A stretch of 64,000 nt of DNA. Source: Halomicrobium zhouii (lineage in GTDB: Archaea; Halobacteriota; Halobacteria; Halobacteriales; Haloarculaceae). The DNA is taken from assembly GCF_900114435.1 (NCBI RefSeq), contig NZ_FOZK01000001.1, positions 124,001 to 188,000 of the forward strand. The letters run 5' to 3'. Below the pieces are notes generated by a model, which saw only the letters and a list, made by a program, of their open reading frames with translations, did no database searches and had not been told where the DNA came from. A program made the position numbers and the translations under genes. Of this stretch, positions 13,309-49,405 are shown one piece after another; positions within the stretch are counted from its first letter, which is position 1, and every line of letters starts with the position of its first letter.

Positions 13309-13553
13309 GGGCGACGGGGAAGCGGTGCTGGCCGGCCACCGGTCTCATCGACAGATCCGTCCGCAGGGGGACGGACGCCGACGACGAACGTCAGATGCAC
13401 GCCTACGGATCGCCGCGTCGCGTGCTTGAACCCCTCGCTTCCGGCCTATACCGATCTAAAATTCGCTGTCACGTCGCGACGGGTGATCCTGAGTCCGTAG
13501 TGAGCGGGTGATTCACGATCACGCTATTGAAACGAACACAGACAGCACGACCC

Positions 13554-13954
13554 AGAAAGCCCTCGGCGCGCTCGACCACTCCGGGGCTCGCTGCGCTCCA
13601 GCGGGTGCTTGCTTCGCCCGGGAGGGTTCGACCGCCGCTCGCCCTTTCAGTCCTCCAGGACGGCCCAGCACCGCAGCCCTGCCCTTCCCCTGGTCGCGCG
13701 CCCCTCGCGTTTGCTCGGGGACGCGCTCCCGGCCGACCGCCGCGCGGTTACGGAAGGAAGCGTGACCCGCCGCGGACGCGGCGGGTTCGGGGAGGGGTGG
13801 CGGTCCAATCGCGAGCGCGTTTCATCGCGCGAGCAACGCGGCGCCTGGAGGACTGAAAGGGCGAGGTGCGGTCGACGAAGTCCGAACCCGTAAGCACGCG
13901 AGGAACGAGCGCGCGCAACGGGTTCGCACGAGTCGAGCACGCCGAGGGCTTTCG
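13554..13954. repeat. Family-A long palindromic repeat, copy 1
   Basis: The ends AGAAAGCCCTCGGCGCGCTC.. and ..GAGCACGCCGAGGGCTTTC are inverted repeats of about 22 bp with one mismatch. Inside, 32-bp arms (13628-13659 and 13844-13875) pair with only two mismatches, so nearly the whole 401 bp folds on itself. It shares a 32-bp identical block (CACCGCAGCCCTGCCCTTCC.., 13669-13700) and other blocks with the copy at 40.0 kb. It fills most of the gene-free gap 13309-14099. Open frames across it are arginine/serine-rich shadows. Confidence 0.8.
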
Positions 13955-14099
13955 AGTTGTTTGACTTCGTGCGAAGAGCGACAATCCCGAAACCTACCAA
14001 TCGCTACGTCCTTGAGCTGTACTCACCGAAACGAGCCCGCCGACGGTCGATTCCGATCAGGGTCCGCTAACGGGGAGTCACGACCCCCCAGTAGCCCCG

Positions 14100-28524: not shown

Positions 28525-30105
28525 TCAGTTGTCGAAGCGGGCCTGGACGAACGGTTCGGCGTCGTCGATGTCACCGAGCCTGGAGTCAGAGAGCAACACG
28601 GCCTCCGTCTCTTCGAGTGGAACCGAGAGGCTGATCTCCTTGGTCCGGCCGTACCGGCCCTTCGAGACGACGACGGCGTTGACGATACCGAGCATGTCGA
28701 GTTCGGAGATGAGGTCGGTGACCCGGCGCTGTGTGAGGATGTCGGCGTCGATCTCCTCGCAGAGCCGTTTGTAGATGTTGTACACCTCGCCCGTGTTGAT
28801 GTTGCGGACGCCGTTCTTCTCCAGCAGCATGATCGCGAAGAGGACGATCTTCGACTGCGTCGGGAGGGTCCGGACGACCTCGACGACCCGGTCGAGTTCG
28901 ATCTTCTCCTGGGCCTTGCGAACGTGGGCCTCCTGGACGAGGTCCGTCTGGTCGCGCTCGGCGAGTTCGCCGGCGGTCCGGAGCAGGTCGAGAGCGCGGC
29001 GGGCGTCACCGTGTTCCTGGGCGGCGAAGGCCGCACACAGCGGGATGACGTCGTCCGACAGCGCGTCGTCCTTGAACGAGACGTCAGACCGGTGGTCGAG
29101 GATGTCCCGGAGCTGGTTGGCGTCGTAGGGCGGGAAGACGATCTCCTCCTCGCCGAGGCTGGACTTGACGCGGGGGTCCAGGAAGTCGGTGAACTTCAGG
29201 TCGTTCGAGATGCCCATGATCGAGACCCGGGAGTTCTCGAGCTGGGAGTTCATCCGCGAGAGGTTGTACAGCGTGTCGTCGCCCGACTTCTCGACGAGCT
29301 TGTCGATCTCGTCGAGCATGATGACGACGACGCGCTCGTGGTAGTCGACGGCGTCGAAGAACGAACTGTACACCCGGTCGGTGGGCCACCCGGTCATCGG
29401 TACCTCCTCGAAGCCCTCCCTGTCTGACTCGAGGTCGTCTATCTCCTCGGTGACGGCCTCGACGCCGTCGAACTCGGAGTCGGCCAGTTCCGCATCGTCT
29501 TCGCGTGCGCGCTCGCGAAGCGATTCGAGTTCCGCGACGCGGTCGTCGATGACCGCCTCGTTCTTCTCGATGAACTTGTTCGCGAGCTGTGCGAGGACGC
29601 GGTACTGGGTGTCGGTCACCTCGCAGTTGATGTACTCGACCTCGCAGGGAACCTCGTACTTCTGGGAGGTCGTCTCAAGTTCTTCGCTGACGAACTTGGC
29701 ACTGGCCGTCTTTCCGGTGCCGGTCTTCCCGTAGATGAGGATGTTCGACGGTGAATCTCCCCGGAGAGCGGTGACCAGGATGGTCGCCATCTTGTTGATC
29801 TGCTCCTCGCGGTGGGGGAGCTTGTGCGGCGTGTAGGAGGGTCGCAACACTTCCTTGTTCTCGAAGATCGGTTCCCCCGAGAGGAGATCGTCGAACAGGC
29901 CCCGGGAGGCCTCACCAGACTCGCCGTCGCCGTCGGCGTCGAGTTCGTCCAGGACGACGTCGTCGAGGTCGGTCCCGACGGACGCCCCGGTCAGCTCGTC
30001 TTCACTGGCGCTGTCCGCGTCGTCGACTTCGGTTCCGTCCGGACCGTTCGATGGACCGTCGCTATCGCCATCGTCCGGATCCGATTGGTCGCCCGTATCT
30101 GTCAT
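28525..30105 (-). CDS. orc1: Origin recognition / replication initiation protein Orc1/Cdc6
   Basis: A 526-residue AAA+ initiator. Residues 1-65 are an acidic disordered extension; Walker A GKTGTGKT is at about residue 126, Walker B MLDEIDK at about 268, sensor-type SNDLKF near 304 and an arginine-rich segment follows; the C-terminal winged helix occupies about 420-515. It binds ORB boxes and loads the MCM helicase. Its start faces a 1.2-kb gene-free region with several ORBs, so this is the cognate initiator of the origin. The first ORB begins 15 bp before its start codon, which suggests that Orc1 also represses its own promoter (inference). Confidence 0.95.
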   Translation of the reverse strand: MTDTGDQSDPDDGDSDGPSNGPDGTEVDDADSASEDELTGASVGTDLDDVVLDELDADGDGESGEASRGLFDDLLSGEPIFENKEVLRPSYTPHKLPHREEQINKMATILVTALRGDSPSNILIYGKTGTGKTASAKFVSEELETTSQKYEVPCEVEYINCEVTDTQYRVLAQLANKFIEKNEAVIDDRVAELESLRERAREDDAELADSEFDGVEAVTEEIDDLESDREGFEEVPMTGWPTDRVYSSFFDAVDYHERVVVIMLDEIDKLVEKSGDDTLYNLSRMNSQLENSRVSIMGISNDLKFTDFLDPRVKSSLGEEEIVFPPYDANQLRDILDHRSDVSFKDDALSDDVIPLCAAFAAQEHGDARRALDLLRTAGELAERDQTDLVQEAHVRKAQEKIELDRVVEVVRTLPTQSKIVLFAIMLLEKNGVRNINTGEVYNIYKRLCEEIDADILTQRRVTDLISELDMLGIVNAVVVSKGRYGRTKEISLSVPLEETEAVLLSDSRLGDIDDAEPFVQARFDN

Positions 30106-30454: not shown

Positions 30455-30459
30455 CCCCC

Positions 30460-30482
30460 AACCCCTTCGTTTCGACTGGAAC
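30460..30482 (-). other. ORB box, left of the AT-rich core
   Basis: Minus-strand reading GTTCCAGTCGAAACGAAGGGGTT. Its core of 20 bases is identical to the box at 30723-30743 but in the opposite orientation, giving the inverted ORB pair typical of haloarchaeal origins. Confidence 0.85.
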
Positions 30483-30720: not shown

Positions 30721-30743
30721 ACTCCAGTCGAAACGAAGGGGTT
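30721..30743 (+). other. ORB box, right of the AT-rich core
   Basis: CTCCAGTCGAAACGAAGGGG plus TT, followed by a further GGGGG run, faces the box at 30460-30482 across the AT-rich core. Confidence 0.85.
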
Positions 30744-30930
30744 GGGGGCACTCGTTGTCCCGTTCCTGTCCCGAATGCGGGACGAACGATCCCTCGAGGT
30801 CTCGCTTCGATGCCGACGAGAGGCGTCAGTCGTTCCCCGCCACGGCTCGCTCCGTCACACCTTCGTTTCCACACTACTCACAGACTCGTTCCTGAACCAC
30901 CCTCACCGCCCATTTTCACTGCATCTTCCA

Positions 30931-39873: not shown

Positions 39874-40024
39874 CCGGTCGGTCGTTCGCCCTCTCTCAGT
39901 TTAAGAGTTCGCGTAGCGTGGCGAAAGTGGAGCTAGGGGGACGGGTTCTGTGTGTTTGAACGGGTGTGAGTTGACCGGTTAGCTCGTCGGAATTTCGCTG
40001 AAAGGACTCCCACCGCCAACACCC

Positions 40025-40523
40025 AGAAAGCCCTCGGCGGGCTCCAGTCCCGCGGCCCACTTGCGCTCCTCGTGGTTCGAGAGAGCGAAGCTCTCTCGTC
40101 ATCACGAAAGGCGCTGCGCGCCTTTCGAACGACTTCGCTCCGGTGCTTAGTGGGCCGGGGTTCCCGGAGCCCGCCTCGCCCTTTCAGTCCTCCAGGCCCG
40201 CACCGCAGCCCTGCCCTTCCCCTGGTCGCGCGATGAAACGCGCTCCCGGCCGACCGCCGGGCGGTTGCTGAGTGGTCAGGAAGCGTGTCGCGCCGCCAGG
40301 CGCGACCGGGGAGGTTTGGTGGAGTTAAGCGCGAGCGCCTCCGTGCGCGAGCAATGCTGTCCTGGTGTCTTGGGCGAACGGAGTGAGCGCAAGGCTCAGG
40401 AGAGCTTGCTCTCCTGGTGGACTGAAAGGGCGAGGTGCGGTCGACGAAGCACGGACCCGCAAGCACCGAACGGCGTGAGGCGCGCAGGGGGTCCGCGCGA
40501 GTCGAGCGTGCCGAGGGCTTTCG
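40025..40523. repeat. Family-A long palindromic repeat, copy 2
   Basis: Same termini as copy 1: AGAAAGCCCTCGGCGGGCTC at the left and GAGCGTGCCGAGGGCTTTC at the right. Inner arms 40171-40196 and 40413-40438 pair almost fully. It contains the shared CACCGCAGCCCTGCCCTTCC block and extra perfect hairpins, for example AGGAGAGC-TT-GCTCTCCT at 40399-40416. It fills most of the gene-free gap 39874-40666; arginine/serine-rich frames inside are not genes. Confidence 0.8.
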
Positions 40524-40666
40524 AGTTGTTTGAACTCGTACTCACTGCTGAAACGTCGAAATCCACTGATCACTCACTCCTTGATTTGTACTGACCAGTT
40601 TCAGGACCGAGAGTCACCGAAGAACCGGTCCGTTTCGTTTCGAACGCCATCCACCACCAACCCCAC

Positions 40667-45861: not shown

Positions 45862-45985
45862 CCCCACCTTTTTCGTCGTCCTCAGAAATCGAAGATTTCT
45901 GACGGGCTGCACGAGAGCTCCGCTCTCGTGAACGTCGGGTTCGCGCTCCGCGCGAACCACTCCTCGAAAAACGTGGGCGAAAAAG
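45862..45985. repeat. Family-B intergenic repeat, copy 1
   Basis: It begins CCCCACCTTTTTCGTCGTC and ends CACTCCTCGAAAAACGTGGG plus CGAAAAAG; both ends recur at 55.07 kb. Between them are perfect hairpins (CAGAAATC-GA-GATTTCTG, CACGAGAGC-TCC-GCTCTCGTG, GGTTCGCG-CTC-CGCGCGAACC). It occupies the gap between two divergent genes (45819-46284), which otherwise holds only promoter sequence. Confidence 0.65.
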
Positions 45986-49203: not shown

Positions 49204-49405
49204 GAAAGCCCTCGGCCCGCTCGCCTCGCGCGGCTCGCTGCGCTCCTCGCCTGTCGGCTGCGGTGCTTACATCGCCGTGCTTCGGCCACCGGCCCTCGCC
49301 CTTTCATTCCACCAGGAGAGCAAGCTCTCCTGCGCCCTCGTTCGCTTCGCTCACGAGGACACCAGGACAGCACGGCACAGCGGACCGCCACACGCCTCCC
49401 CAACC
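49204..49405. repeat. Family-A repeat, copy 3 (partial, reversed)
   Basis: It starts with GAAAGCCCTCGGCCCGCTCG, then CTCGCCCTTTCATTCCACCA followed by the hairpin GGAGAGC-AA-GCTCTCC and GACACCAGGACAGCA. These match the reverse complement of the right half of copy 2, so this copy is inverted and lacks the second half. It fills much of the gene-free gap 49070-49507; the right border is uncertain. Confidence 0.65.

Follow-up and report, generated by a model that had tools for sequence, protein, structure and literature searches.

High-copy intergenic palindromes are familiar from bacteria, where the REP/BIME sequences often stand in pairs of opposite orientation. The PATEs of Haloquadratum are transposase-free, palindrome-rich, heterogeneous and dispersed elements without terminal inverted repeats (ITRs), which are tied to IS605-type ends and often struck by smaller elements; the same source describes SMR-A, which insert into palindromes near the termini of other elements, and SwitchRepeats, whose copies are swapped (PMC3119063). 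Insertion of IS6-family elements generates 8-bp duplications, and the family counts two MITEs (227 and 336 bp) among its members (PMC7986276). The element family analyzed here was noticed in a stretch of 64,000 nt (the window) of the Halomicrobium zhouii genome (contig NZ_FOZK01000001.1, positions 124,001 to 188,000). Its copies probably represent a non-autonomous, MITE-like mobile element, the core of which is a hairpin module of about 107 nt selected for its fold as a single strand. They resemble REP/BIME sequences as high-copy, paired, intergenic palindromes, but the repeated module is about 107 nt long and archaeal.

Anatomy, copy number and distribution

The initial annotation placed three copies of a palindromic element at 13554-13954, 40025-40523 and 49204-49405, the last one partial and inverted. 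All three were confirmed, including the state of the third, and a covariance model built from the element arms finds five modules in the window. According to an alignment of complete copies, a full copy in this genus is a head-to-head dimer consisting of a left arm, a centre of about 180 bp and a right arm. Each arm is a module of about 107-110 nt that starts with GGnGGACTGAAAGGGCGAGG, contains an internal AAGCACC, ends with CCGAGGGCTTTC and always faces outward in dimers; some arms bear small palindromic inserts in the apical loop. Outer tails of about 75 bp, more weakly conserved and diverged, follow on each side. The element thus extends beyond the limits first assigned to it, by about 75 bp at either end. 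The features of the three copies (A, B and C) in the window are:

13476..13554, no strand assigned: left outer tail of copy A, weakly conserved (profile-HMM match reaching 13476, conservation profile)
13555..13656, minus strand: left arm of copy A, structured module (covariance model R1, 68.4 bits, and anatomy)
13657..13846, plus strand: central domain of copy A, CCCTGCCCTTCCCC ... GGAAGCGTG ... GGGGAGG (conserved across dimers of this genome)
13847..13953, plus strand: right arm of copy A, structured module (R1, 110.7 bits)
13954..14037, no strand assigned: right outer tail of copy A, ending near CTGTACTCACC (profile-HMM match to 14037, conservation profile)
39946..40607, plus strand: entire copy B with outer tails (profile-HMM match)
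40026..40193, minus strand: left arm of copy B, structured module with a small palindromic insert at about 40072-40133 (R1, 104.1 bits, and sequence)
40194..40415, plus strand: central domain of copy B, which bears another small hairpin insert close to the 3' end (sequence)
40416..40522, plus strand: right arm of copy B, structured module (R1, 108.1 bits)
49204..49313, minus strand: structured module of partial copy C (R1, 94.6 bits)
49314..49405, minus strand: hairpin insert and central-domain remnant of partial copy C (sequence; profile match to 49354)

The insert at 40072-40133, which recurs in other arms (e.g. L072, L083, L095), has the form GTGGTTCGA..TCGTCATCACGA..TCGAACGAC and is probably a separate tiny mobile repeat. 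Elsewhere in the same genome, element ends occur in tandem with a spacing of 51 bp (L007 1789-1903, L028 1371-1434), and similar end repeats are found in a distant genus (L055). The window also contains a short repeat, about 36 bp long, around ACCACTCCTCGAAAAACGTGGGCGAAAAAG (at 45950, 54968 and 55116; two copies are 94% alike) and a perfect 26-bp inverted repeat, CCCCCAACCCCTTCGTTTCGACTGGA, at 30455-30480 and 30723-30748, adjoining an Orc1/Cdc6 gene (28525-30105, minus strand); repeat and gene together resemble an origin of replication that carries origin recognition boxes.

From the three copies in 64 kb, many per genome had been expected, and this is borne out by an estimated 78 or so sites in the 4.25-Mb genome, a figure composed of 69 sites obtained by merging profile searches of stretches around sequence matches, which were taken as the copies of this genome, and of further copies seen outside those stretches. 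The matches in question were those of the inner 17-mer GGACTGAAAGGGCGAGG (73+73 genome-wide at up to two mismatches) and of the outer 13-mer GAAAGCCCTCGGC (64+73, exact), compared with none for the respective controls (the reversed pattern in the case of the 17-mer). Every one of the 69 sites is intergenic. When genes were predicted with a simple codon model, for which the window served as training sequence, none of these sites and none of 117 modules elsewhere overlaps a predicted gene, in agreement with the earlier statement that the element carries no coding sequence.

Matches to the covariance model are confined to a single order, the Halobacteriales, and were obtained in 31 of 217 genomes of the phylum; with up to 17 candidates scored per genome, the module counts of high-copy genomes are lower bounds. 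The exact 17-mer is present in named records of, among others, Halosimplex, Halorussus, Halonotius, Haloparvum, Natronomonas and Haladaptatus. Carriage by viruses or phages was rejected, as IMG/VR contains no exact 17-mer and matches to Streptomyces phages are short and were taken as chance.

Covariation and strand preference of the module

In a set of 38 modules, drawn from this genome and from others, changes on both sides affect 18 of the 29 base pairs, and the covarying helices are four in number. Paired cells amount to 96.7% (79.9% in shuffles) and double changes to 168 (49.9 in shuffles), and none of 500 shuffles reached the observed values of covariation, pairing or double changes, although these are counts rather than probabilities, because related copies are not independent. 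The signal is destroyed when the partner column is slid by 1 to 3 positions, and covariation is also seen in a second type of module, in which the upper stem is different. On the GGACTGAAAGG strand G-U pairs prevail over A-C by 32:3 in the copies of this genome and by 10:1 in other genomes; the excess is present in right and left arms separately, in both on the outward strand. Letters of the internal loops are conserved (AAGCAC / GCGCAG and GGGCGAG / CGAGGG). Compensatory changes and strand preference, the two marks of a structured RNA or single-stranded DNA (ssDNA) module, were therefore both found. The strong predominance of G-U over A-C on one of the strands implies that the module folds as a single strand, and because selection is confined to that strand, we infer that the conserved fold acts as RNA or ssDNA.

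Rfam yielded no score above the gathering threshold and nothing plausible at a relaxed E-value, which rules out a known Rfam family. In a literature sequence search the inner-arm sequence was not found, and matches to the outer ends were unrelated as judged by title. As far as these searches reach, the element is indeed without a name, as had been noted. A role as a cis-regulatory UTR element or terminator was ruled out by the orientation of solo modules, which is random with respect to both neighbouring genes (22/21/20/19).

The same strand-specific covariation and G-U bias, the conserved loop letters and the strongly conserved plasmid copy in many genera (see below) would suit one or more genuine haloarchaeal noncoding RNA genes with their own promoters, for which spread by transposons would be incidental. 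We regard this as possible but rather unlikely, given that orientation to neighbours is random, that Rfam holds no relative, that the sequence upstream of solo modules shows no promoter-like composition, conserved stretch or A/T rise, and that in dimers it is the G+C-rich centre that lies upstream of each module. For the dispersed copies, RNA made by read-through or independent transcription is nonetheless slightly favoured as the form in which the fold acts.

The plasmid locus beside an RPA-like gene

On plasmids of many genera a conserved, noncoding stretch of about 500 nt that is rich in hairpins (L325 3460-4000 and aligned plasmid regions) is situated upstream of a gene for an RPA-like single-strand-DNA-binding protein and has at its end a single, highly conserved module of about 117 nt. 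In the plasmid pHS2 of Halobacterium salinarum R1, where the module occupies 72007-72123, the upstream part of the stretch is different. PIN-like and HTH genes are found on the other side of the module. On some plasmids two further genes separate the module from this pair, and RPA is thus the fixed neighbour. An RPA-linked locus is present in the genome of the window as well (L096; RPA 48% identical) and in about ten other examined genomes. Conservation and single copy number make the plasmid copy the probable working version, of which the dispersed copies would be captured and amplified relatives.

The neighbouring genes form a conserved plasmid pair with overlapping frames, an HTH protein (DUF7437) and a PIN-like protein of 169 aa (L322-L327, L340-L346), and relatives of the latter occur in 117 plasmid records. 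The pair looks like a toxin-antitoxin or regulator-nuclease system; the PIN-like assignment comes from reading the sequence, and Pfam gave no significant match. The pair was rejected as mobiliser of the repeats, as it is a widespread plasmid module that has only distant relatives in this genome (36% identity).

Frpo and ssi sites of bacterial conjugative plasmids are ssDNA promoter or priming sites. By analogy, the module could be an ssDNA structure serving promotion or priming during an ssDNA stage of the plasmid, with the chromosomal copies as escaped relatives. As a full account of the family this appears improbable. The single copy in a fixed place upstream of the RPA-like gene would fit it, as would the co-oriented PIN-like/HTH and TFB genes nearby, the identity of the structured strand with the RPA template strand and the typing of several RPA-locus plasmids as MPF_T, yet every plasmid found was typed non-mobilizable, and the strand preference seen for the module did not show clearly for the whole plasmid region. 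Moreover, neither IS6 transposition nor chromosomal residence is known to involve an ssDNA stage. At the plasmid locus itself, ssDNA is favoured as the acting form.

Taken over the whole order, the picture that we tentatively put forward, at less than even confidence, is that of an unrecognised structured element (RNA or strand-specific ssDNA) which works at the plasmid RPA locus, has been captured by transposable elements, reaches well over 100 copies per genome and is shuffled among fixed sites.

Probable mobility and copy exchange, and relation to known repeats

The most direct link to transposition comes from solo modules of other genomes. In 9 of 114 foreign flank pairs the inverted ITR GGTAGTGTTCAGATA was found on both sides at 11 or more of 15 positions, and in none with 60 shuffled motifs. 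Solo-module elements of 217-330 bp with the ITR GGTAGTGTTCAGATAAG and without a transposase gene occur in several genera; clear IS6 ITRs are limited to nine of the 117 foreign modules, the rest being too degenerate or different. Two of these nine are flanked by perfect 8-bp target duplications (GCTCCGAG/GCTCCGAG and GCCCGCCC/GCCCGCCC) and two more by duplications matching at 7 of 8 positions. The G080 genome contains a 697 bp IS6-family transposon (NF033587; L352), the ITRs of which agree with the MITE motif at 15/17 and 17/17 positions, with 8-bp duplications of its own (TAATAGGC, TACTGATA). Because of the IS6-like ITRs, the 8-bp duplications and the matching G080 transposon, the nine solo forms are read as putative IS6-type MITEs with the module as cargo, and an IS6-type transposase acting in trans would most likely have moved them. 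The subterminal GGATTGAAAGGTGAGGCG of the G080 transposon (L352, about 1391-1430) resembles the module start GGACTGAAAGGGCGAGGCG, which may be coincidence or ancestry.

The dimers of the window are short, transposase-free and dispersed in many copies with inverted ends, as is general for MITEs. However, no consistent flanking direct repeat was detected among 41 dimers of this type, and when their ends were compared with the IS6 motif, shuffles did as well in 98 of 500 cases on the left and in 20 of 500 on the right. A placement of the dimers among the IS6 MITEs is therefore not supported, and they are filed as MITE-like. The initial designation as MITE-like is accordingly sustained for the family by the IS6-type ITRs and 8-bp duplications of some solo modules but not shown for the window dimers, and a transposon with matching terminal repeats was found for those solo modules but not for the dimers.

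Comparison with the close relative G196 suggests that the sites are old. Of 22 sites comparable by both flanks, 20 are occupied, three of these in inverted orientation, and two lack an element. A clean empty site, which the initial annotation had proposed to look for, was not obtained; at L086, which lacks the element, the rest of the intergenic region is missing too. While the flanks are about 91% identical between the two genomes, the element cores show 74.5% identity, the same as random other copies (74.7%), and the copy in the corresponding position is the closest one in a single case out of 20. In some cases the copy that matches best stands at a different site and is 96-99% identical over stretches. 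As judged from these sequence comparisons, the simplest reading is that homologous recombination between repeats, or gene conversion between them, exchanges the resident copies and sometimes inverts them. Local evolution so fast that it reached saturation is the weaker alternative because it leaves near-identical stretches at different sites unexplained. Synteny with G196 seems to break off at 13554, but the G196 contig in question (41,706 bp) ends in element copies on both sides, so that the break probably stems from the assembly.

Two further explanations of the family fare poorly. The high divergence of the copies (about 75% identity) and their lack of a known function would suit passive repeat debris with structure as a by-product of inverted-repeat ancestry, but covariation within arms and a G-U preference on one strand are not expected without selection, unless mutation is strand-biased, and we consider this explanation very improbable. 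The initial annotation had suggested a structural element able to form a hairpin of 400-500 nt. The physical ability is supported by strong predicted folds (MFE z -8.9 and -11.8) and by an arm-arm duplex predicted to be more stable than the local folds. In contrast, arms of the same dimer are no more similar than arms of different dimers (62.6% versus 65.5%) and pair no better than with arms drawn from other dimers, the second stem (P2) pairs at 10.2-10.7 of 12 positions within its own arm versus about 8.1 across arms, and solo modules are common in other genomes. The element is thus structural, but its conserved structure consists of two separate hairpins of about 110 nt and a central domain; selection for one long palindrome was rejected on the comparison of same-dimer and different-dimer arms and is the least credible of the explanations.

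If our preferred interpretation of a mobile, structured module is correct, haloarchaea share an unnamed structured module between plasmids and transposable elements, and provide a clear case of sites that persist while the repeat copies occupying them are swapped, with implications for gene conversion in archaeal chromosomes. The copy next to the RPA-like gene on plasmids would then be a testable entry to the handling of ssDNA by haloarchaeal plasmids.

With respect to the known systems outlined above, the nine solo modules agree with IS6-family MITEs in size, ITR type and, in some cases, 8-bp duplications (PMC7986276), but contain a conserved structured module; the two listed MITEs were compared by description, and the window dimers differ from them in lacking a matching ITR and target duplications. 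The family as a whole shares with PATEs the absence of a transposase, the richness in palindromes, the heterogeneity, the dispersal and the frequent hits by smaller elements, whereas the solo modules depart from PATEs by their IS6 ITRs and target duplications; around the window dimers no target duplication was detected. The small palindromic arm inserts are, by description, like SMR-A. Finally, the swapping of copies is the same phenomenon as in the SwitchRepeats of Haloquadratum (PMC3119063), but has here been measured for a single family, in which almost every tested site shows it.
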